Of a DNA stretch of 33,645 bases, positions 3,318-33,645 are shown one piece after another. The DNA is from a virus: positions 1 through 33,645 of the IMG/VR virus record IMGVR_UViG_3300021467_000019. One strand, given 5' to 3'. Position 1 is the stretch's first letter. Each line of letters opens with the position of its first letter. Under the pieces are notes generated by a model. It searched no databases, was not told the origin of the DNA, and saw only the letters and a program-made list of their open reading frames with translations. A program made the translations under genes and the position numbers.

Positions 3318-3564
3318 CTTTTCTCATTTTGAGATTGACCTTTCCCATCTTTTGGATGGGGTTAGCGTCGAGATAGAGTACGTGGAAATGGAGGGGAAGT
3401 TTCCTCGTCCCAAGATCATCTACACATTCACACCTGAGGCATGGGAAAGGCTGAAAGATACCCCGATGGTTCATATACCGGCGGATGTGGAGTACCGGAT
3501 CCTGACAGAAGTCCCGATGGAAAAGTTCATGATAAAGGATGGCGATGACGAAGATCAGCGGTGA
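3304..3564 (+). CDS. Hypothetical acidic protein
   Basis: An 86-residue acidic protein. I chose ATG 3304 (MTEIDFSHFEIDLSHLL), with GGGAGG about nine bases upstream, over an in-frame ATG at 3274 inside the previous gene. The start contains a small internal duplication, IDFSHFE/IDLSHLL, visible also as TTTTCTCATTTT and CTTTCCCATCTT in the DNA. The rest has alternating hydrophobic residues (VSVEIEYVEM, KIIYTF) typical of beta strands. It overlaps terL's start by about 20 bases. No family is recognised. Confidence 0.65.
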   Translation: MTEIDFSHFEIDLSHLLDGVSVEIEYVEMEGKFPRPKIIYTFTPEAWERLKDTPMVHIPADVEYRILTEVPMEKFMIKDGDDEDQR

Positions 3565-5083
3565 ACTTCTAGTAATCCAGGCGCAAGATCCATACCTGTG
3601 GGCAGTCCAGAACTACATGATGCCCGACGGGAAGCCCTACGGGATCTACTCGCCTCCATTCGTCATGCCGTACCTGCGCGATGTTTTCCGAGCGTTTGCT
3701 CGGCTACCAAGGCGGGGGCGGTTGGTGTTCATGAAAGCAGGGCAGATGGGGCTGACCGAGCTAGGGAAGATATGCGCGTTCTGGTTTATGGACGTTCGCC
3801 AGGAAGGCGTCCTCTATATGCTCAGAACTGATGGTGAGCTTGGACAGTTTGCCCAGGCCCGCATTGATCCTCACATCCAAGCATCGCCGTACCTTGAGCG
3901 GGGTTTCACGGACGTGGATAACGTTCACCTCAAGATCGGATGGGGCCAGACGCTTTACCTCCGTGGATCAGTAGCGACGGGCAAGATGCGGGAGATTCCG
4001 GTGGGACTGGTCGTGCGTGATGAGTACGAGGTCCAGGATCCGGAAGGAGCGAAGCTCGCAGAAGCCCGGTTAGGATTGTCGCAGTATCAGTACCTGCTAG
4101 ACATCGGGAATCCGAAATATCCAGAAGGGAAGCTACACAATGCCTACCTTGAGGGGACGCAAGAGGAGTGGGAGATAAAGTGTGAGGCGTGCGGCGAGTG
4201 GTTTATCCCGCGGTGGCCGGACTCAGTTGATGCGGAGCGGCCAGAGGCTCTGATCTGTCCTAACTGCGGAGAGGCGGTTGATCGTCTCCAACGTGGAAGG
4301 TGGGTCGCTCAGAATCCAGACGCTCCTTACCGATCATTCCACATTTCCAGACTGGTTAGCCCAAGGATTCAGCCGGGTGACTTCATCACTGAGTGGAACG
4401 CGGCGAAGGGGAACCCGACACGAGAGCAAGTCTTCTACAACATGTGGCTCGGCCTTCCCTACGCTCCGGGAGGAGCTAAGCTCGATGAGTCGATCGTCTC
4501 CGGCTTGCCGTCTTCAGGCGAGATGAAGATGAGCTGTAACCAGCCAACGGTCATGGGGGTTGATGTGGGAGCGGTTCTACACGTCGTGGTGAGGCTCCTG
4601 TCGGGAGGAATCATCTGGGCGGGTGAGGTTGAGTGGCCGGCGTTGGATCGGCTGATCGGCGCGTACAACGTCGTCGCCTGTGGGATTGATGCTATGCCGG
4701 AGACGTATGCGGCGACGAAGTTCGCCCAACGGTTCCCTGATATCGTGTCCCTAATCCGTTATCACAGTAGCCCACTCAGCATCAATGTCACTAAGAAAAT
4801 TGAGGAAGGGGTGACCGTCTTGACCGTGCCTCGCACTGCGACGCTAGACAAAGCGTTCCAGTTGATCCACGTGGGGGAGCTGGCAGTACCCAGTACGTTG
4901 CCGGAGGGATTCTGGAAGCACTTCTTCGCGCTAACGCGGCAAGTGGTCGATGACGGTCACAAAACCTACGCGACGTATGTTCAAGACGGCGGGCGACCCG
5001 ATCACTACGCCCATGCTTTCAACTACTCAGAGATAGTTCGGGAAGGGCAATCCTTCCACGAAAGGGTCCAGGTGTTTATATGA
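3545..5083 (+). CDS. terL: Terminase large subunit, phage lambda GpA family
   Basis: A 512-residue ATPase-nuclease that drives DNA into the procapsid. The P-loop region KAGQMGLTE (residues 64-72) matches the deviant Walker A of the GpA family, where the functional Lys comes at the beginning (lambda gpA KSARVGYS) rather than before the Thr. A Walker B-like LVVRDEYE lies near residue 157. Two CxxC pairs (CEACG near 213, CPNCG near 237) match the zinc-binding insertion of the GpA family. The C-terminal nuclease domain has an acidic start (VMGVDVGA), CGIDAMPET and a final DHYAHAFNY. ATG 3545 is preceded by AAAGG at a six-base spacing; ATG 3539 is in frame and possible. The stop overlaps the next ATG (ATGA). 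Confidence 0.92.
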   Translation: MTKISGELLVIQAQDPYLWAVQNYMMPDGKPYGIYSPPFVMPYLRDVFRAFARLPRRGRLVFMKAGQMGLTELGKICAFWFMDVRQEGVLYMLRTDGELGQFAQARIDPHIQASPYLERGFTDVDNVHLKIGWGQTLYLRGSVATGKMREIPVGLVVRDEYEVQDPEGAKLAEARLGLSQYQYLLDIGNPKYPEGKLHNAYLEGTQEEWEIKCEACGEWFIPRWPDSVDAERPEALICPNCGEAVDRLQRGRWVAQNPDAPYRSFHISRLVSPRIQPGDFITEWNAAKGNPTREQVFYNMWLGLPYAPGGAKLDESIVSGLPSSGEMKMSCNQPTVMGVDVGAVLHVVVRLLSGGIIWAGEVEWPALDRLIGAYNVVACGIDAMPETYAATKFAQRFPDIVSLIRYHSSPLSINVTKKIEEGVTVLTVPRTATLDKAFQLIHVGELAVPSTLPEGFWKHFFALTRQVVDDGHKTYATYVQDGGRPDHYAHAFNYSEIVREGQSFHERVQVFI

Positions 5084-5872: not shown

Positions 5873-6171
5873 ACGGATTACTAGAAGCGACTGGCAACTT
5901 TGCGTTGCTGGTGAGCTTTGCAGTGAGCGCGGCGTGCATCTTCTGGTATTTGACGACGAGTGTTGATGATGCGCGGGGCCTCCCAGCGAAAGGCCGGTTG
6001 GTCTACCGAGCAGGGCGGGCGTTCGTCTGGCTTTACGGCGCAATTGCTGTGACGATGATTGGGAAAGAGGTAGCAGCTCACCTTGAGGAGTCGGTGTACG
6101 GCATGGCGATTGTCGCCTCCGTGGTGGTGGCGCTAGTATATATTCTGCGAGGGGTGAAGCATGGCCGATGA
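5869..6171 (+). CDS. Small membrane protein with three predicted helices
   Basis: A 100-residue protein with three hydrophobic stretches: about residues 10-29 (NFALLVSFAVSAACIFWYL), 48-66 (AFVWLYGAIAVTMIGKEV) and 77-95 (YGMAIVASVVVALVYILRG). The loop between the first two is basic (DDARGLPAKGRLVYRAGR), which suggests it faces the cytoplasm. It would sit in the host inner membrane. Size and topology are compatible with a holin or a superinfection-exclusion protein, but no endolysin is adjacent, so neither can be claimed. The start is ATG 5869 in an ATGA overlap with the previous gene. Confidence 0.72.
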   Translation: MNGLLEATGNFALLVSFAVSAACIFWYLTTSVDDARGLPAKGRLVYRAGRAFVWLYGAIAVTMIGKEVAAHLEESVYGMAIVASVVVALVYILRGVKHGR

Positions 6172-6526
6172 GCAGGACAGGAAAGATCGAGCGGCGATCC
6201 GGGAGGTAGCGCGCAAGTTCCTCCAGGCGATCATGGACGGCGAGGACTGGCGACCCTACGCTCAACAGACGTTCCGAGAGGCGCGGGTCCAACCGAATAT
6301 CCCAGTCTTTCGTGACTTCGAGGTGGGGAGGACGCAAAGGATGGCCGGGGCAAACGACAAGGTCTTCCGCGCTGTGTACGTCAAGATGCAGTTAGGACCG
6401 TCCAGCATAGCAGGGATCGAGTGGATCGAGGCACGGTTGACGGCGGTCAAGGAATCGGCCCCGTACACGCCCGATCCGAACGGAGAGTGGGGCATTTGCC
6501 CGACATCGTGGACGATGGTGAGATGA
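6161..6526 (+). CDS. Hypothetical protein
   Basis: A 121-residue protein beginning at ATG 6161, preceded by GAGGGGTGAAG and overlapping the membrane protein by 11 bases. The first 40 residues form a charged helix (DRKDRAAIREVARKFLQAIMDG). The rest is mixed, with a likely strand (KVFRAVYVKMQL) and a Trp/Pro-rich end. No family is recognised. It is tightly linked to the next gene by ATGA, which makes it part of the same translational chain. Confidence 0.65.
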   Translation: MADEQDRKDRAAIREVARKFLQAIMDGEDWRPYAQQTFREARVQPNIPVFRDFEVGRTQRMAGANDKVFRAVYVKMQLGPSSIAGIEWIEARLTAVKESAPYTPDPNGEWGICPTSWTMVR

Positions 6527-7859: not shown

Positions 7860-7888
7860 TTGACCCCCTTGTTACTATAGGGTATAAT
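7860..7888 (+). promoter_or_regulatory. Strong sigma70-type promoter
   Basis: TTGACC at 7860-7865 and a perfect TATAAT at 7883-7888 are separated by exactly 17 bases, giving a predicted start near 7895. It lies in the only non-coding gap of this block, just before the gene at 7919, and fixes that gene's start: ATG 7895 would sit at the first transcribed base and have no ribosome binding site, whereas ATG 7919 has GAAGGAGGG. It would transcribe the two unknown genes up to the terminator at 8634-8673. Confidence 0.82.
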
Positions 7889-7918
7889 ACGGACATGAAA
7901 ACAGCGAAGGAGGGCAAA

Positions 7919-8233
7919 ATGGATCAGGTTCAGTCGAGGAGGTTTGACGTGATCGAGATCACGGTCCAGAGGTACGCGAACGAGTCGCAGTGGTCCGAAA
8001 TGCCCGTGTGGATCTTTACAAGCCACGGACCCCAGCGAGTTACAGGCTTGAGGCGGTTTTCGGACGGTCCGTGGGTCGTTTGTGGGGAAGAGAACGGCGG
8101 ATTCGGCGTTTCGTATTGCGTGACGTGGGATTCGCGTTTGTACGTTGGGTTGCGGGAATCCGTTGTTCTGGAGTGGCGGAGAGAACGGGCGCGGGAAGCG
8201 GCGAGAATGGCGGCAGTGGGGAGGAGATCGTAA
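7919..8233 (+). CDS. Hypothetical protein under its own promoter
   Basis: A 104-residue protein starting at ATG 7919, with GAAGGAGGG just upstream and a strong promoter at 7860-7888. The first 80 residues are beta-rich with many Trp and Val (MPVWIFTSHGPQRVTGLRRF, GPWVVCGEENGGFGVSYCV), and the end is a basic helix (EWRRERAREAARMAA). No family is recognised. Having a private, near-consensus promoter inside a late gene cluster suggests expression separate from the structural genes, for example early or in the lysogenic state, as in cargo (moron) genes. That timing is inference. A short 11-codon frame at 8233-8268 bridges it to the next gene. Confidence 0.7.
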   Translation: MDQVQSRRFDVIEITVQRYANESQWSEMPVWIFTSHGPQRVTGLRRFSDGPWVVCGEENGGFGVSYCVTWDSRLYVGLRESVVLEWRRERAREAARMAAVGRRS

Positions 8234-8264
8234 TGGCGGACCGTGTCAAGGTGGAGGTAACGGT

Positions 8265-8618
8265 ATGAACCCGATTCATATTGAGGATGACCGGGAAGAC
8301 CTTTCCGCTCCGGTCGAGGACTGGGGCGCGGAGGTAGGAAAACAGAGGGCGAAGGGGATCAATGAGGTCGCCTTCATCGAGCCGGACCCGGATACACGAG
8401 CGATGAGCCGTGCTTTGAATAGGGAACCGGCGTGGCTTAGGGTAGGCGACAGGGTGTGGTACTGGGCCAGCTTCGGTGTTGGCCCTAAGCTGGAGGCCGT
8501 CATTACCGGAATCAGTGTGAAAGACGGCCAGTTGGTCTATGACTGCGAGACTCCCGCCGGGAAGCGCTGGGGGTACGCAGATCAGTTCGAAAAACGGGAA
8601 GAAGCAAGCACCACCTAG
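8265..8618 (+). CDS. Hypothetical protein with SH3-like C-terminal region
   Basis: A 117-residue protein. The start is ATG 8265, preceded by GGTGGAGGTAACGGT; an upstream in-frame ATG at 8145 is in the previous gene and encodes a Gly/Arg-rich run that looks non-coding. Residues 1-60 are acidic. Residues 62-110 read as a small beta-barrel (WLRVGDRVWYWASFGVG, LEAVITGISVKDGQLVYDC, RWGYADQFE), similar in pattern to SH3 or KOW-type domains, though no specific family can be named. It is the last gene before the terminator and shares the promoter at 7860. Confidence 0.68.
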   Translation: MNPIHIEDDREDLSAPVEDWGAEVGKQRAKGINEVAFIEPDPDTRAMSRALNREPAWLRVGDRVWYWASFGVGPKLEAVITGISVKDGQLVYDCETPAGKRWGYADQFEKREEASTT

Positions 8619-8633
8619 AACCCTCCTTTGCTT

Positions 8634-8673
8634 AGGGCGGCGGTTTTCGCACTTTCCGCCGCCCTCTCCTTTT
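8634..8673 (+). terminator. Rho-independent terminator
   Basis: Perfect 10-bp inverted arms AGGGCGGCGG (8634-8643) and CCGCCGCCCT (8656-8665) flank a 12-base loop, followed by CTCCTTTT. It closes the small operon driven from 7860 and separates it from the portal operon. Confidence 0.8.
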
Positions 8674-8704
8674 GAGACGACCGTGTAACGGAATGCAGAC
8701 GGGC

Positions 8705-8733
8705 TTGACTCGGAGGTGAGCCTGAACTAGAAT
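8705..8733 (+). promoter_or_regulatory. Sigma70-type promoter before the head genes
   Basis: TTGACT at 8705-8710 and TAGAAT at 8728-8733 are 17 bases apart, with a predicted start near 8740. It is the only promoter seen upstream of the portal-to-fibre series and would serve as the head and tail gene promoter, but an intrinsic hairpin begins about 20 bases after its start. Confidence 0.75.
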
Positions 8734-8760
8734 AGACCCACGGGAATAGCGTCGAGAAGG

Positions 8761-8798
8761 ACGCCCCCGCGCCAAACGGCGTGGGGGTGTTTCTTTTA
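8761..8798 (+). terminator. Terminator/attenuator-like hairpin in the portal leader
   Basis: Arms at 8761-8773 and 8778-8790 form a 13-bp stem (two G-U pairs) with an AAAC loop, followed by TTCTTTTA. It lies between the 8705 promoter and the portal ribosome binding site (AGAGGAGG at 8798-8805), so transcripts from that promoter would end after about 55 bases unless the polymerase reads through. This invites an antitermination or attenuation model like lambda pR'-tR', although no antiterminator gene is recognised here. Confidence 0.72.
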
Positions 8799-8809
8799 GA
8801 GGAGGCGAT

Positions 8810-11002
8810 ATGTCGCTATCGACGTTACTAGAACGTGGGTTAGGTCAGCGGACACGCGGCGTGGGGGAAACCACGTCGATCATCATGGCGGGGGAGGACA
8901 AAGGCGATTACATCTCCCGTCCGAGTTACACGAGCGACCTGTTAGCCGCGTACAGGGTTCACAGCTGGACGTATGCTGGAATCCGGGCTATTGGTCGAGC
9001 GGTCGCTAGGGTGCCGATTGTTGCGATTGAGTTCAAGCGGACCCCGAAGTTCGCATCCGTTCGGGAGTTCAAAGAAACGACCCAGATCAACAACTGGGCG
9101 GAGGCGTTCGAAGCGTGGCTCAAGTTTGAGCGGGCGACGGTTGTCGATCACGAAATCCTCGATCTGATTGAGCATCCCCTTGATGAGGCTCAGTTGACCC
9201 GATACGACCTGATCTACGTTACGTCGGTCTACATCGACCTTGCCGGAGACGCGTACTGGGAGAAGCGGTTTTCCAACAAGGCAAAGACGAAGGTTGACGG
9301 CCTGTGGCCGAAGATCGATCCCAGGTACATGTACGCTATCCCCGATGAGAAGACGCTGATCGGCGGTTGGCTTTATCGGGTGGGAACGCGTGCCGTCGTG
9401 TTTGACAAGGATGAGATTGTCCACTTTGTGGAATTTAACCCTGAAAATCCCTACTACGGCCTCAGCCCGACGAAGGTTCTGCGAACGCAGCTGATCGCCG
9501 ATGCGCGGGCGATGGACTGGAACAGGGCATTCTTCGATAACTCAGCGGAGGTTCCTGGTTACCTGAAAGTCGATCGGAAGATCAACCCCTCAGACGCCCG
9601 AATGCTGAAAGCGATGTGGGATGAGCAGCACAAGGGCGTCGCTCGGTCGCACGGGATCGCAGTCCTTGGACAAGGAGCGGAGTATAAGAAGGTCGGCTTA
9701 AGCCATACAGAGATGGGGTTCCGTGAATTACGCCTTCTCACCCGTGAAGAAGTGCTAGCCGTGCTGGGAGTCCCTCCGATCGTGGCAGGCGTTTCTAAAG
9801 AGCAAGGGCTGAATCGCGCCGTCGCCCAGGTCCAAGAGCAGCTTTTCTATGAGAACACGGTCCTTCCTCGTTGCGAGATGATCGAGCGTAAGATGAACTT
9901 CGGCCTGCCTCTTGGCGGTGAGAGAGTCAAGGTAGCGTTCGATGTCACAGGAATCCCGGCTCTTCAGGAAGACCAGCAGACCAAGGCTCGGATTGGACGG
10001 TTCCTCCAACAGCAGGGTTGGACGCTCCAGGAGCTGCGAACGAAGTACTGGAACCTGCCTGAAGCCGAGGGCGGTATGGTCAACGACGTCCTGATCCCGA
10101 CGAACCTCCAAAGCGCGGGGACAGTCGCACCGGCCAAGGGTGTCCGCAGGGTGAGAGGCAAGATCCTCGACGTTACCAAGCTGGCGAGTGATCCCGATAC
10201 GTTGCTCCCCGACCCTTACGAATCGCTCGTTGATCAGCGTAAGACCCATGCAGAGCATCTGCCAAAGTTAATGGATGAGGGAGCGGATAGGGGGCATCGT
10301 CTCGCTCTTGAGTTAGGAATTGAGGTACCGGATGACTGGAGAGGCCGGTACAACTGGCAAGAACATATTGATCAGTACGTGAACGAGCGGCTAGGGGAAA
10401 AGATCGGCGGAAAAGGCATCGTTACGTCTATCAACGAGGAAACCCGTACGCGGATCCGCAGGCTCATCCGAGATGCGATGAGAGAAGGGGAAGGGGTTCC
10501 TGAAATCGCTAAGCGGCTCCGGGAAGCGTTTGATGGGATGAGCAAGACGCGGGCCAAGACGATCGCGGGGACAGAACTGCACAACGCCTTGGAGACGGGA
10601 CAGTTCCAGTTCTATTCAGCGGTCCGGGTTCCTAAGAAGCGGTGGCTCGCCTTCCCGTCTCAAGAGAATCCTCGGCAGTGGCACCTGGAGGCAATGGACA
10701 CTTACTCGAACGGTATCCCGATGGATGAGCCGTTCGTGATGTCAACGGGGAATTCGTTGATGTATCCCGGCGACATCGCGGCCCCTGGCGAGGAGACGAT
10801 CAACTGTCATTGCGACCTAGTTCCCATGAACGAGGCAGGGAAGACACCGGACATAACGAGGAAGGACTTCCTCGCCTGGGAGAATGAGCTACTGACTGAC
10901 GGAGCGGGCAAGGCATACATAGGGGCGCTGGCGGACTTCTTCCAGCGCGAAAAGAAGCGGTATCTAGATCACTTGGCGACGGTTACAGGACAGGAGGTGT
11001 GA
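8810..11002 (+). CDS. Portal protein fused to a MuF-type minor head domain
   Basis: A 730-residue protein. Residues about 30-430 match the HK97-type portal layout (VHSWTYAGIRAIGRAVARVP, then SPTKVLRTQLIADARAMDWN, GVPPIVAGVSKEQG), which forms the dodecameric ring through which DNA passes. A linker of about 130 residues follows. Residues about 570-690 carry a MuF-like domain: RIRRLIRDAMREGEGVPEI, then TIAGTELHNALETGQ, and the closing NCHCDLVP, the family's C-x-C-x3-P hallmark. In many phages portal and MuF protein are separate adjacent genes; here they form one chain with no stop between. ATG 8810 has AGAGGAGG four bases upstream. MuF proteins sit inside the head near the portal and can be ejected with DNA. 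Confidence 0.92.
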   Translation: MSLSTLLERGLGQRTRGVGETTSIIMAGEDKGDYISRPSYTSDLLAAYRVHSWTYAGIRAIGRAVARVPIVAIEFKRTPKFASVREFKETTQINNWAEAFEAWLKFERATVVDHEILDLIEHPLDEAQLTRYDLIYVTSVYIDLAGDAYWEKRFSNKAKTKVDGLWPKIDPRYMYAIPDEKTLIGGWLYRVGTRAVVFDKDEIVHFVEFNPENPYYGLSPTKVLRTQLIADARAMDWNRAFFDNSAEVPGYLKVDRKINPSDARMLKAMWDEQHKGVARSHGIAVLGQGAEYKKVGLSHTEMGFRELRLLTREEVLAVLGVPPIVAGVSKEQGLNRAVAQVQEQLFYENTVLPRCEMIERKMNFGLPLGGERVKVAFDVTGIPALQEDQQTKARIGRFLQQQGWTLQELRTKYWNLPEAEGGMVNDVLIPTNLQSAGTVAPAKGVRRVRGKILDVTKLASDPDTLLPDPYESLVDQRKTHAEHLPKLMDEGADRGHRLALELGIEVPDDWRGRYNWQEHIDQYVNERLGEKIGGKGIVTSINEETRTRIRRLIRDAMREGEGVPEIAKRLREAFDGMSKTRAKTIAGTELHNALETGQFQFYSAVRVPKKRWLAFPSQENPRQWHLEAMDTYSNGIPMDEPFVMSTGNSLMYPGDIAAPGEETINCHCDLVPMNEAGKTPDITRKDFLAWENELLTDGAGKAYIGALADFFQREKKRYLDHLATVTGQEV

Positions 11003-12177: not shown

Positions 12178-13643
12178 TGGAACGGATGCTTGCAACAGAA
12201 GTCCTAGTTAAGGGCGAAAGCGAACATGTCGTCGTCCCACGGGATGAAGTCAAACGGTTGGCGGAGACGATGCAGCTTGCCGGGGTATTCAAGTTCGGGA
12301 TCTATCCCCGCGAGGATGTCCCGGATACGGCTGTCAAGGCCGTTCATTCCTTCAAGGGTGACTTCTTAAACCCGGCACGACCTGTAGCCTCATCAACCAT
12401 TTCGTCGGCCGAAGTCGATCGTGACGGTGATGTTCTGGAGTCTACGGGGGTCATCATTACGGACAACTTTCGACAGAATCCGGTGGTGTTGCCGTCTCAT
12501 GCTCACACTTTCCCTGTGGGGTTTGATCGAAAGCTGAAGGTGAGCAAAGACCGTGTTTGGGCAGAATGGGAGTGGTTAGTAGACGTTCCCGAGACTCCCG
12601 CCCAGGTCTATCAGCGCCTGTGGGATGCTCACGTCCTCAACTGCACGTCTGTTGGATTCATTCCCATTCCTGGTGAGTGGGAAGAGATACCCGAGACGTG
12701 GGGGTGGAAGTTTAGGGCGTGGGAGCTACTAGAACACAGCCCTGTAGTCATCCCATCAAACCGGGAGGCGATGCGGACAGATGGGATTCGGGACTACGTG
12801 CGACAGTACGCTGAGGCTATCGCTGTCGGGCCGTCCCCGATCGCTAAAGGTCTTTGGAACGCGGCGGATGCGGCGTTGCGGCCTAAGCAGGTGGCGGTAT
12901 CCAAGCCGACTGAACCCGTAGCGGCTGTTTCTTCTGAGACGTTGGGAACGAAGGAAACAGGCACCACCGCAGCGGAGCCGATCCCTGCTCAGGTGATTGT
13001 GACTACCACGGTGTCCAGCACCGATTCCGAGGAGAAGGGCGTCATCACCTACGGTGCAGCGCACCCAGACGGTACGCCGAAAGCGCCGAAGGATGAAGCC
13101 TGGGACGGCCCTGCAGAAGTGGCAGCGGCCGAAGTCTCCGATCTAAAGGTCATGTGCACCTGGGTGGATTCGGAGGAGCCGGATAACAAAGGCTCCTACA
13201 AACTTCCGCATCACAAGGCAAGCGGACATGCGGTTGTCTGGCGTGGTGTAACGGCGGCAATGGGGGCATTACTCGGTGCACGGGGCGGGGTCAACATCCC
13301 CGATGCAGACCGAAAAGGCGTCTACAACCATCTCGCTCGCCACTACAAAGAGTTCGACGAGGAGCCACCTGAGTTCAAGGACTACAGCGCGGAGGAACTG
13401 TATCAGCGGTTTCCTGAGCTGTATGAGGACTTCAAGTCGGAGACATCTCTCGATGGAGAGAAGCTAGTCCGCCGGGTGCTTACAGCGTGGCGGAGTGGAA
13501 CGTTGTCGGAGGATGAGGCGACGTGGCTTATCCTCGGTTACCTGAAAGGGATAGAGACTGAGAAAAACGAGGCAGTAGCGAAGTTGGCCGAGTTAGCGGC
13601 CAAAGTGGTCAAAAAGTCAGGAGGTGACAGATGGAAAACCTAA
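12177..13643 (+). CDS. Prohead maturation protease (S78-like) with C-terminal extension
   Basis: A 488-residue protein. Residues about 75-205 are an HK97-type S78 prohead protease: SSAEVDRDGDVLES, the catalytic-type His (H108 in SHAH), S158 in NCTSVGF and the ELLEHSPVVIPSN segment. The protease cleaves capsid and scaffold in the procapsid. After a low-complexity linker rich in Val, Ala and Thr (about 225-285) comes a second conserved block near 330-405, SYKLPHHKASGHAVVWRG then GVNIPDADRKGVYNHLARHY, recurrent in related phage head genes and possibly a scaffold or assembly part. Family members without this part are near 200 residues. ATG 12177 follows GGGGAGGCG; the longer in-frame start at 12063 overlaps the zinc-ribbon gene and is rejected. 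Confidence 0.9.
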   Translation: MERMLATEVLVKGESEHVVVPRDEVKRLAETMQLAGVFKFGIYPREDVPDTAVKAVHSFKGDFLNPARPVASSTISSAEVDRDGDVLESTGVIITDNFRQNPVVLPSHAHTFPVGFDRKLKVSKDRVWAEWEWLVDVPETPAQVYQRLWDAHVLNCTSVGFIPIPGEWEEIPETWGWKFRAWELLEHSPVVIPSNREAMRTDGIRDYVRQYAEAIAVGPSPIAKGLWNAADAALRPKQVAVSKPTEPVAAVSSETLGTKETGTTAAEPIPAQVIVTTTVSSTDSEEKGVITYGAAHPDGTPKAPKDEAWDGPAEVAAAEVSDLKVMCTWVDSEEPDNKGSYKLPHHKASGHAVVWRGVTAAMGALLGARGGVNIPDADRKGVYNHLARHYKEFDEEPPEFKDYSAEELYQRFPELYEDFKSETSLDGEKLVRRVLTAWRSGTLSEDEATWLILGYLKGIETEKNEAVAKLAELAAKVVKKSGGDRWKT

Positions 13644-14836
13644 CTGAGAAGGACGTGCAGAAGCTCGCAGACGCGGCCCTTGCTATGTTGGATAAGGAGC
13701 CGGAGGAGCGGGAATCTGCCGAGGTACGGATCGGTGATCAGGTCTTCACAGTAGTGCCGAAGAGGGCTGACCGTGTAGAGGCAGTCGATCCCGAGCAAGC
13801 ACAGGAGAAGGAACGGGAGGCAAGCTTCCCGGCGATTCACCCGCAGCCGAAGCAGCCGGACAAGGTCCAGTCCTTCTCGTTCGCCAAAGCGCTGAGTGCG
13901 TGTTGGCGGCGGAACTGGAAAGGGGCTGAGTTCGAGCGCGAGGTGCTGATCCAGACAAAGGCCCTCACGACCGATGACGACAGCGCCGGGGGATTCCTAG
14001 TTCAGGATGAGCTTCTCCCAGAGCTGATCCCTGAGCTTTACGCTCAGACGGTCGTCCGCTCCCTTGGAGCCACGATCTACACGATGTCATCGGAGAAGCT
14101 GAGCATCCCTCGGATGGCCTCAGGTGCAACTGCGTACTGGCTCGACCAGTCCATGCAGAAGACGGAGAGCCAGCCTGCATTTGAGCAGGTGACGCTGAAT
14201 CTCCGTGAGTGCATCGGGCTTGTCCCGATTCACGAGCGGCTCCTCAAGTTCGCAAACCAGTCGATCGAGACGATCGTCCGGCAGGACTTGATGAAGCAGC
14301 TTGCCCTCGCTGAGGATCAAGCGTTCATCCGGGGAACCGGTGGAGTGCAGCCTCTAGGTCTGTATTATCAGGCTGGCGTTGGTTCTGCCAATATCGACAC
14401 GAACGGTGCAGCCCCGACAGCGAGCGATCTGACTGGTATGATGTACCAGATCGAGCTTCTGAACGGTTCTTACAGTGGCTGGGCGATGCACCCCCGTTCG
14501 CTGAACACGATCCGCAGCTTGGTCGATGGTAACAACAGGCCGATCTACTACGACTCGATGGCGAGCGGGATACCGAACGGCCTGTTTGGTATGCCGGTCA
14601 AGACCACGACCCAGATCCCGATCAACCTCACTGTTGGAACGTCGTCTGACTGCTCGTACATCATCCTCGGTAACTGGCCGAGCTACGCAATCGGCGAGGC
14701 CGGTGCGATCGAGATTGCGGTCAGCCGCGATGAGAAGTTCAGCTACGACCAAGTGCTGATCCGGGCGGTGCACTACGTAGACGGTGTGCCCAAGCAGCCG
14801 GAAGAGTTCTACATTCTGAAGGGCATCCGCGCCTAG
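13631..14836 (+). CDS. Major capsid protein, HK97 fold
   Basis: A 401-residue capsid protein. Residues 1-90 are a charged, helical delta-like segment (KDVQKLADAALAMLDKEPEE) expected to act as scaffold and be cut by the upstream protease. From about 110, HK97-fold sequence begins: TDDDSAGGFLVQDELLPELI (N-arm), SEKLSIPRMASG (E-loop region), a long spine helix (RLLKFANQSIETIVRQDLMK) and P/A-domain segments such as FIRGTGGVQPLGLYY and MASGIPNGLFGMPVKTT. The ATG at 13631 follows AGGAGGTGACAG and overlaps the protease end by 13 bases. Size and order match the family. Whether it crosslinks like HK97 is not evident. Confidence 0.94.
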   Translation: MENLTEKDVQKLADAALAMLDKEPEERESAEVRIGDQVFTVVPKRADRVEAVDPEQAQEKEREASFPAIHPQPKQPDKVQSFSFAKALSACWRRNWKGAEFEREVLIQTKALTTDDDSAGGFLVQDELLPELIPELYAQTVVRSLGATIYTMSSEKLSIPRMASGATAYWLDQSMQKTESQPAFEQVTLNLRECIGLVPIHERLLKFANQSIETIVRQDLMKQLALAEDQAFIRGTGGVQPLGLYYQAGVGSANIDTNGAAPTASDLTGMMYQIELLNGSYSGWAMHPRSLNTIRSLVDGNNRPIYYDSMASGIPNGLFGMPVKTTTQIPINLTVGTSSDCSYIILGNWPSYAIGEAGAIEIAVSRDEKFSYDQVLIRAVHYVDGVPKQPEEFYILKGIRA

Positions 14837-16210: not shown

Positions 16211-16590
16211 GTGTAGCGTGGAATCCGGCGAACTTCATGAAGAACGTCCAAGCAGCGGCCATGATCCGGATGAGGCAGGCGATGACTCTCGCTGTCCAGA
16301 CTGCCAAAGAAGGGATGCAAGAGCTTGGCCCCGGTGTCCATTCCGAACCTGGTGAATACCCGGCAAGCCAGAGCGGTGCACAGGGCATGAGGGGACATAT
16401 CACGTTTGAGGTGGTGACAGAGGGCGACAAGGTGATCGGGCGGTTCGGGATCGTCCCGACTACCGCCGGTGCGGAGGAGCTGGGGTATCCCGCGTTTCTA
16501 GAACTAGGAACGATCAAGATGGCTCCTCGCCCGTGGATCACACTAACGGTAGATTCGTGTATGTCCGCCTGGAAGGAGATTCTAACATGA
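16207..16590 (+). CDS. HK97 gp10-like tail completion protein
   Basis: A 127-residue protein. The ending YPAFLELGTIKMAPRPWI is the hallmark of HK97 gp10-type proteins (FLE-x-GT-x-x-MAPRPW-x), which help join the tail to the neck. The N-terminal half is helical (MIRMRQAMTLAVQTAKEGM). It begins at GTG 16207 in an overlap with the previous gene (GTGA) and ends in an ATGA overlap with the next, the strictly coupled layout of this connector block. Confidence 0.88.
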   Translation: MSVAWNPANFMKNVQAAAMIRMRQAMTLAVQTAKEGMQELGPGVHSEPGEYPASQSGAQGMRGHITFEVVTEGDKVIGRFGIVPTTAGAEELGYPAFLELGTIKMAPRPWITLTVDSCMSAWKEILT

Positions 16591-26456: not shown

Positions 26457-28466
26457 AGATCTTAATGTTAGCATGGAGCGACTGGGCAGGTTGGGGATAC
26501 AAAATGAAGAAGGCTGTGGAAGGGTTAGGGCATGTCGCCCGCCTGGTGGACTTCAGTCCTCCTTACTATACCCAGTATCCCCACGATCTACACAAGCCGA
26601 CGGTCCAGGAGGTAGGTGACCTTGTGGATTGGGCTGATGTCATCGTGGCGTTCGACAACGGCGACACTCTCATCCCAGTTGACCGGGATTGGAAACCTGT
26701 TCTGCAAGTCTACCACGGGTCATGGTTCCGTCAGCGTCCTGAGCCGGTCATAGAACGCGCTGAGAGGAGGGGATACGTTACAGCCTGCACTACCCACGAT
26801 CTAACCCGTTGGGGGCCGGTCTGGTTGCCTGTAGCGGTCAAAGATCTAAGTGACTTGCGGAAGCCGGCTGAGGAATTCACCGTCGTCCACGCACCGACGA
26901 AGCGTGACGTTCGTGGTACAGAGGAAATCATCAAGGCGTGTGAGGAAGCCGGCGTCAAGCTGGATCTGATCGAAGGGGTATCGAACGCGGACTGCATCAA
27001 ACGTAAAGCGAGAGGCCATCTCTACATCGACCAAGCAAAGTCCGGGGCCGGGTTAGGGTACGGCGTGAACGTCGTTGAAGCATGGGCGTTGGGCTTGCCG
27101 GTGATTAGCTACTCGACGCCCGAGATTGAGGAGAAGATTGTGGAATCCGTCGGTGGGCTACCGTTCTGTCCCGCGATCGATGACCTTGCGGCGATCATCA
27201 CACGGTTCCGAGATGGCGGGGACTTCAGGCGGAAATGGACCGAAAAAGGACGGGCGACATGGGCGGATCACCACAAGCCCGAAAAGGCTGCCAAGAGATT
27301 CGTTGAAGCATGTGAGAGGGCGGTAAAGGAGGGCCGGCCTCCTACACCGCTGAAGATCAGCGTGACGATGATCGTTCGTAACGAGGAGGAGTGTCTGCAA
27401 ACAGCCCTTGATTCCACGAAAGGTCTAGCTGATGAAGTCGTCGTCGTTGATACAGGATCCTCAGACGACACGGTCAAGATCGCCGAGGCGTTCGGGGCGA
27501 AAGTCATCCTCGGCGGGGATCGGATGGATAAGGCAGGGTCGAGGAATAAGGCGATCCAGGAAGCGACAGGCGACTGGGTGGTAGTCCTTGATGCTGACGA
27601 GCGAATAGCTGAGCCAGAGAAGGTGCGAGAGCATATCAATCAGACCTACGCGGATGGCTTGATGATCCGTACAACCTACATGCACGGCGACGAGTCAGGG
27701 CTAGCGTTCTATCAACAGAGATGCTGGAAGAAAGGGGCGTTCTGGTATAAGTACCGAGCGCATGAGCTACCTCTCCCCAGTGAGGGGCGCAAAGCAGTCG
27801 AGCGGGTTCCTTACGTTTGGGAACATCGACCACCTAAAGGCCGATGGGGATGGAAGACAAAGTACGCCCTTGATCGGTTACTGTTAGATGTCGCTGAACA
27901 TCCCGACGATCCGCGCCCTGTCTACTATCTCGGCAGACAGTATCGGTATATGGCCGGCCTGGAGGAATACAAAGACAAGGCCGATTACTACAACGATCTA
28001 GCGATCGCAACTCTTGAAAAGTATCTAGGAATGCTTGGGGACCGTATCGCCTGGGATCGGCCGAATGCTTGCTTTGATCTGGCATTGCTCTATGAGAAGA
28101 AGAAGCGGTTCACTGATCGGATCAAAGTCTTACACGAGGCATGCCGATCACAGCCGACAAACAAGCGATGGTGGGCGGAGCTTGCCCGTGCATACTGGGA
28201 TGTAGGGCTACGGGAACTAGCTCTTGGTCTGATGAAGGTCCCACTTGAGCTACCGAGCGAGCGACAGGAAGGGTACATCGTTTCCGCTCTTGATGGACCT
28301 TACATCTACGATCGAGCCTCAATGTGGTGCTGGCATATGGGGCGTTGGCAAGAGGGGCGAGAGTATGCTAAGGAGGCGTTGGCGAGGACGCCTCCCGATA
28401 CGCCGGACCACAAAAGGATTATTCAGAACATCAAGCACTTTGATCAGCGATTGAAAGGAGGCGGGG

Positions 28467-28474
<8 letters not shown>
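26444..28474 (+). CDS. Two-domain glycosyltransferase (GT4-like plus GT2) with TPR-like C terminus
   Basis: A 676-residue protein. Residues 1-300 look like a GT-B (GT4-type) unit: an N-terminal Rossmann start ([17 protein letters not shown]), [18 protein letters not shown] and the sugar-nucleotide segment [18 protein letters not shown]. From about residue 303, a GT2 (GT-A) domain starts with [18 protein letters not shown], has [13 protein letters not shown], and a metal-binding DAD at 383-385. The C-terminal 200 residues contain TPR-like pairs of helices ([48 protein letters not shown]). The GT2-TPR pairing resembles peptide or protein glycosyltransferases of the SunS group. The start is GTG 26444, overlapping the methyltransferase. 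The acceptor cannot be read directly; the fibre that follows is the obvious candidate. Confidence 0.88.

Positions 28475-33645
<5,171 letters not shown>

Follow-up and report, generated by a model that had tools for sequence, protein, structure and literature searches.

A candidate antiterminator hairpin between promoter and terminator ahead of the head operon of related uncultured bacterial viruses

Introduction

The lambdoid phages (Q, N and put) are the best-known case of genes controlled by releasing RNA polymerase past a stop close to the promoter. In the viral record studied here (G000), a stretch of 33,645 nucleotides (33.6 kb, called the window) whose predicted genes lie on the plus strand, the initial annotation had described such a stop ahead of the head operon: a terminator (T1), a promoter and a second terminator (T2), at which transcripts would end early unless polymerase was let through, an arrangement likened to the lambda pR'-tR' switch, to RNA-based, put-like antitermination or to a short regulatory RNA.

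Results

As summarized in Table 1, the region from the end of a short gene (8618) to the portal gene contains, in this order, T1, the promoter, T2, an AGGAGG and the ATG at 8810. All three elements of the initial annotation are present, its coordinates and stem lengths are right, and the promoter does stand ahead of the head operon, whose first product matches the PHROG families portal (3.6e-89) and head morphogenesis (1.4e-35).

Table 1. Positions of the regulatory elements and of selected genes in the window.
Feature	Position	Strand	Basis
Large terminase	3539-5083	+	
T1, a weak terminator of the intrinsic type or an insulator, behind the upstream gene	8634-8673	+	10-bp hairpin, C/T-rich tail
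Promoter, sigma70/sigmaA-type, TTGACT-17-TAGAAT	8705-8733	+	hexamers 8705-8710 and 8728-8733
Predicted short leader RNA, ~58 nt if stopped at T2	8740-8798	+	both ends inferred from the -10 and the T2 tail
H1, candidate antiterminator, GCGTC-GAGAAG-GACGC	8749-8764	+	corresponding hairpin covaries in the G012/G014 copies
T2, intrinsic terminator or attenuator	8759-8798	+	stem of 13-15 bp with AAAC loop; U-rich tail
Shine-Dalgarno AGGAGG	8800-8805	+	sequence, ahead of the portal ATG at 8810
Portal protein, first in the head operon, with a MuF-type head-morphogenesis domain at its C terminus	8810-11002	+	PHROG
Major capsid protein	13631-14836	+	

The two terminators differ in predicted strength, which was expressed as a d-score from ViennaRNA energies and the classical formula of the literature. 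The T1 stem is perfect over 10 bp (8634-8665), and owing to its weak U-tract (tail CTCCTTTT), its long loop of 12 nt and a d-score of -8 it was graded a weak terminator. T2 has a core of 13 bp (8761-8773/8778-8790), extendable to 15 pairs (8759-8792), with an AAAC loop, a U-rich tail up to about 8798 and a d-score of +48 to +57; the fold of the leader has a z of -4.6. Transcripts that began at about 8740 and ended at about 8798 would be about 58 nt long, in agreement with the early stop that had been predicted. The window has no more promoter-like matches than its shuffles (6 found versus 8.7), so that promoter and terminator each lack significance on their own. In G003, a complete relative of 46.7 kb, no other terminator-like stem of the entire plus strand is as long and as GC-rich as those of T1 and T2, and the strand carries just three promoters scoring at least 10/12.

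Besides the identical contig L002, the close relatives L003, L007, L008 and G003 were compared. Neither hexamer nor any part of T2 varies among them, while five spacer positions do; the invariance of T2 says little by itself, since the adjoining portal codons are equally conserved. The arms of T1 are identical in five close relatives, and the upstream gene is swapped right up to T1. A separate promoter at 7860-7888 (TTGACC-17-TATAAT, 11/12), the best in the scanned part of the window, heads a block of short genes (7895-8618) that differs between close relatives and looks like an exchangeable cargo cassette with T1 as its end. G003 is circular with a terminal repeat of 114 bp, and exact direct repeats at the ends (114 bases in G003, L030-L032; 114 in G012, L202-L204; 64 in G014, L205-L207) indicate that these three genomes are probably complete and circular, although the collection lists no completeness for them.

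Conservation of the leader in relatives, which the initial annotation had named as a check, was found as a conserved arrangement down to 37% portal identity. Relatives whose portals are 95, 53, 43, 38, 38 and 37% identical to that of the window keep a promoter, 21-32 nt, a terminator, a ribosome-binding site and the portal start (L112-L115, 53%; L116 and L118, 43%; L117, 38%; L177/L178, 38%; L098, 37%; the contigs of L112 and L114 start inside the promoter). In these distant lineages the promoter is consensus-like and a GC-rich hairpin with a U-rich tail follows 21-32 nt past the -10, in leaders of largely unrelated sequence that share no DNA similarity. Because these leaders are too diverged for reliable alignment, what is conserved between lineages is the layout and not the sequence. 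T1 is restricted to the lineage of the window and absent from the more distant ones. The conserved unit comprises the promoter, a further hairpin described below (H1), the terminator and the ribosome-binding site, with T1 outside it; the proposed terminator-promoter-terminator switch stands as a list of elements, but not as a conserved unit, its first member being weak and lineage-specific. Since the terminator hairpin is in every case at most about 35 nt ahead of the start codon, it might instead serve mainly as a stabilizer or processing site of the 5' end of the mRNA; stabilization, however, needs no U-tract, whereas a U-rich tail and clearly positive d-scores are found in every lineage, which makes this role decidedly unlikely.

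With H1 left out of the criteria, a promoter and terminator ahead of a ribosome-binding site and start codon occurred 12 times (about 8 non-redundant, two of the 12, in L177/L178, having been read by eye) in 0.84 Mb of family strand, compared with 2 times in 2.6 Mb of controls, a control rate of about one in 1.3 Mb of strand. When promoter, H1 and terminator were required together, a scan devised after the family had been seen gave 11 matches in 0.84 Mb of family strand versus 1 in 1.9 Mb of controls; all 11 lie on the coding strand just ahead of a ribosome-binding site and start, although neither property was among the criteria. The pattern TTGACT-N17-TAGWATAGACY retrieved 62 stretches, mostly by chance, which were reused as controls. 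The arrangement has limits: the group L179-L187 (41% portal identity) has no such leader at the portal, although in its member G019 the module, with a weaker promoter, is found at 62.1 kb, and portal homologues at 25-34% identity in bacterial genomes and known phages have none. In L214 of G017 (16352-16395) a module-like hairpin with a T-rich tail lies directly before the ribosome-binding site and start, upstream of a terminase gene, without a recognisable promoter.

The module is not confined to the portal gene. G012 and G014 (L116 and L118; 50-51 kb) each contain three copies, with 27-29 nt from the -10 to the terminator. Copy A heads the head/tail operon in both genomes, and the genes behind copy C resemble Gam and a phosphoesterase/exonuclease (DNA metabolism). 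Copy B is followed by QueE-, FolE-, QueC- and TGT-like genes in G012 (L203 278-3207), a probable 7-deazaguanine (queuosine-type) DNA-modification operon, and a ParB-like gene, as judged from its sequence, in G014. Between the two genomes, cassette B retains its promoter and leader (75/83), with different genes downstream. A match of cassette B in the Streptomyces phages Spocter and Keanu covers an ordinary terminator only, without H1. For cassette A, the DNA upstream is unrelated between L116 and L118 and the inter-hexamer spacer is identical at 4/17 positions; a consensus promoter nevertheless stands at the same distance in both despite the replaced upstream DNA, and the leaders differ at two positions only, which together make one compensating change from a C-G to a U-A pair in T2. 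G012 also encodes (L204 5148-6308) an OrfB_IS605/TnpB-like protein with a Cas12f1-like zinc-ribbon domain.

These cassettes bear on the proposed likeness to lambda. A Q-type late switch, in which a phage protein binds promoter DNA and loads onto paused polymerase that then passes T2, would suit a promoter, short leader and terminator ahead of late genes, as in lambdoid pR'-tR', and Q action requires both a DNA site between the hexamers of the promoter and, in the initial transcribed region, a -10-like pause element (PMC6606751). TAGAAT just past the -10 in L098 and TAGAAG in L113 could be taken for such an element, but none is evident in the window or in G012. The DNA between -35 and -10, where a Q binding element would sit, is not conserved: the spacer agrees at 4/17 positions where the L116 and L118 leaders are nearly identical, and it varies at five positions among close relatives. 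Furthermore, the modules head non-late operons too, and no Q-like gene was detected among the proteins scanned. The pR'-tR' likeness drawn by the initial annotation is consequently not supported in its strict form, and we consider a Q-type mechanism very unlikely. The module shares with pR'-tR' one late-gene promoter, a short untranslated leader and a terminator before the first gene; it differs in lacking a conserved promoter-DNA site, a pause element evident throughout the family and, among the proteins scanned, a Q homologue, in being reused before other operons and in having an RNA hairpin that overlaps the terminator.

This hairpin, H1, had been missed by the initial annotation. It has 5 bp in the window, and its 3' arm doubles as the base of the T2 5' arm; in each lineage the hairpin that the leader can form has its 3' end inside the opening 2-6 nt of the terminator stem. 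Equivalents are GCGTTC-TAGAC-GAATGC in L113, CCGTG-AGACA-CACGG, GCCTG-AGACA-CAGGC and GCCTT-AGACG-AAGGC in copies A, B and C of G012, CCTTA-TGAAC-TGAGG in L117 and CGGCT-ATAAGA-AGCCG in G019. H1 is present in every lineage, but it is weak (3 bp only) in L098 and L177/L178. Its summed score exceeded all 3000 dinucleotide shuffles and all 3000 between-lineage swaps of the terminator (P ~3e-4 each, values that are somewhat optimistic as H1 was spotted by inspection before testing). MAFFT, without structural input, aligned the H1 copies of G012/G014 in register; across the three copies, 3/5 pairs change on both sides and none is broken, and sliding the pairing partner in this alignment abolishes the covariation signal. 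The loops agree within the genome (AGACA, AGACA, AGACG) and differ between lineages. A third helix closing H1 and a shortened T2 to a three-way junction, proposed by RNAalifold and constrained folds, was discarded (combined P 0.78 versus shuffles), and beyond close relatives all matches of the exact H1 17-mer in viral contigs lay in unrelated contexts.

Were H1 incidental, T2 could be a leaky terminator that passes a fixed share of polymerases, sets the expression level and yields an abundant short RNA. The U-tracts are imperfect in several lineages and the search for a regulatory factor (see below) gave none, which favours this reading; H1, on the other hand, recurs and covaries, and the module is repeated with matching loops ahead of functionally different operons, so that a plain leaky terminator appears improbable.

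By default, the leader folds into the full terminator, and imposing H1 costs 2-15 kcal/mol (14.5 in L117), for which reason something would have to favour H1. With H1 formed, the predicted terminator score drops in every lineage, from +57 to +19 in the window and from +22 to +66 down to -34 to +20 in the others, ending below or near zero in most leaders (about +19 in the window, +20 in L098); since any stem loses score without its base, this drop is weak evidence alone.

Discussion

Building on what is visible in the sequence, namely the promoter, T2, the ribosome-binding site, the family-wide conservation, the recurrence and covariation of H1 and the repetition at three operons, we give about an even chance to the reading that the locus is an operon-heading, default-off attenuator that is released when H1 is stabilized, probably by a trans-acting factor. 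Host RNA polymerase would start near 8740 from TTGACT/TAGAAT and by default stop at T2 after about 58 nt, and the head operon would be expressed once polymerase passes T2. H1 would be made just before T2, from nucleotides of the base of the T2 5' arm; if it were held, what is left of the terminator stem would have lost length and would no longer adjoin the U-tract, so that termination would be weakened. The head genes are thus probably controlled at terminator readthrough rather than at the promoter itself. Two features of an attenuator are found: an intrinsic terminator lies in the untranslated leader, after the promoter and before the first gene, and a conserved alternative helix, weak with 3 bp in L098 and L177/L178, uses part of the terminator stem. 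A leader peptide is not indicated, as no start codon with a ribosome-binding site precedes T2 in the window and none is conserved across lineages.

As the H1 loops match within a genome and differ between lineages, they suggest a trans-acting factor, presumably an RNA-binding one, phage- or host-encoded, that would recognise the loop; with the same H1 at several operons of one genome, one factor could coordinate them. A bolder and rather tentative version would be a dedicated modular RNA antitermination system, in which one trans factor reads the loop of the 5-bp hairpin, the promoter-hairpin-terminator cassette moves between operons in one piece and loop specificity drifts between lineages. 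No conserved candidate for the factor was found. One small soluble gene of the window is kept in most lineages (6161-6526, 121 aa), and it was dropped as a candidate after its NTF2-like fold model gave no significant PDB match.

Of the suggestions in the initial annotation, RNA-based antitermination comes nearest. HK022 put is a protein-free RNA of about 70 nt that forms two adjacent stem-loops just past an early promoter and brings about long-range antitermination by binding the zinc-binding domain of polymerase (PMC9378689). If the nascent leader acted likewise in cis, its two hairpins would bind polymerase, and T2 and later terminators would be ignored without any phage protein. The module leader indeed lies just past a phage promoter and can fold as two adjacent stem-loops, in the window before the U-tract is made (8738-8785), and in G012 the module heads DNA-metabolism genes, where a phage protein might still be absent. 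Against this stand the facts that the leader has no sequence or Rfam relation to put, that one of its two hairpins is the terminator itself and that the finished leader favours the full terminator fold. What remains of the put-like proposal is a resemblance, and we regard put-like action in cis as unlikely. Rfam covariance models gave nothing at gathering thresholds, the best score being that of Actino-ugpB (18.7 bits versus a threshold of 42.5).

Returning to an attenuator released through H1, two protein-dependent systems invite comparison. The N-boxB hairpin of lambda and P22 consists of a 5-bp stem and a purine-rich pentaloop. H1 likewise combines a 5-bp stem with a pentaloop in G012/G014 and L117, and a pentaloop with a 6-bp stem in L113; it differs in the hexaloop of the window and G019 and in its overlap with the terminator. 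No boxA-like sequence was seen by eye in the leaders, and no N-like protein was present among the proteins scanned, which cover part of the ORFs. In the BglG/SacY/LicT RAT and the ANTAR attenuators, a small protein-binding hairpin overlaps the 5' arm of the leader terminator. H1, as a candidate protein-binding hairpin, overlaps the terminator in the same way, but it lacks the internal loops of RAT and deviates from the ANTAR hexaloop rule; proteins of the BglG/SacY/LicT or ANTAR type were absent from those scanned. The module would accordingly be a variant of transcription attenuation or antitermination that does not match the known systems compared, and no description of its layout was found in the open-access literature searched.

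If the same promoter-hairpin-terminator module does regulate several operons, it would represent a further, apparently separate, solution to the timing of phage gene expression, carried by a family of uncultured bacterial viruses and compact enough to be placed on a single reporter plasmid.

Two further observations concern the window. An open frame at 28455-33644 (at least 1730 residues), which runs off the contig end, carries long Gly-Pro-Thr (collagen-like) repeats and encodes a probable tail fibre; repeats in G003 are related but different. In the predicted fold of the readthrough RNA (8738-8850), the portal start codon can lie inside a hairpin (GGCGAUAUGUCGC) and the 5' arm of H1 can pair with early portal codons, hinting at a possible translational control.
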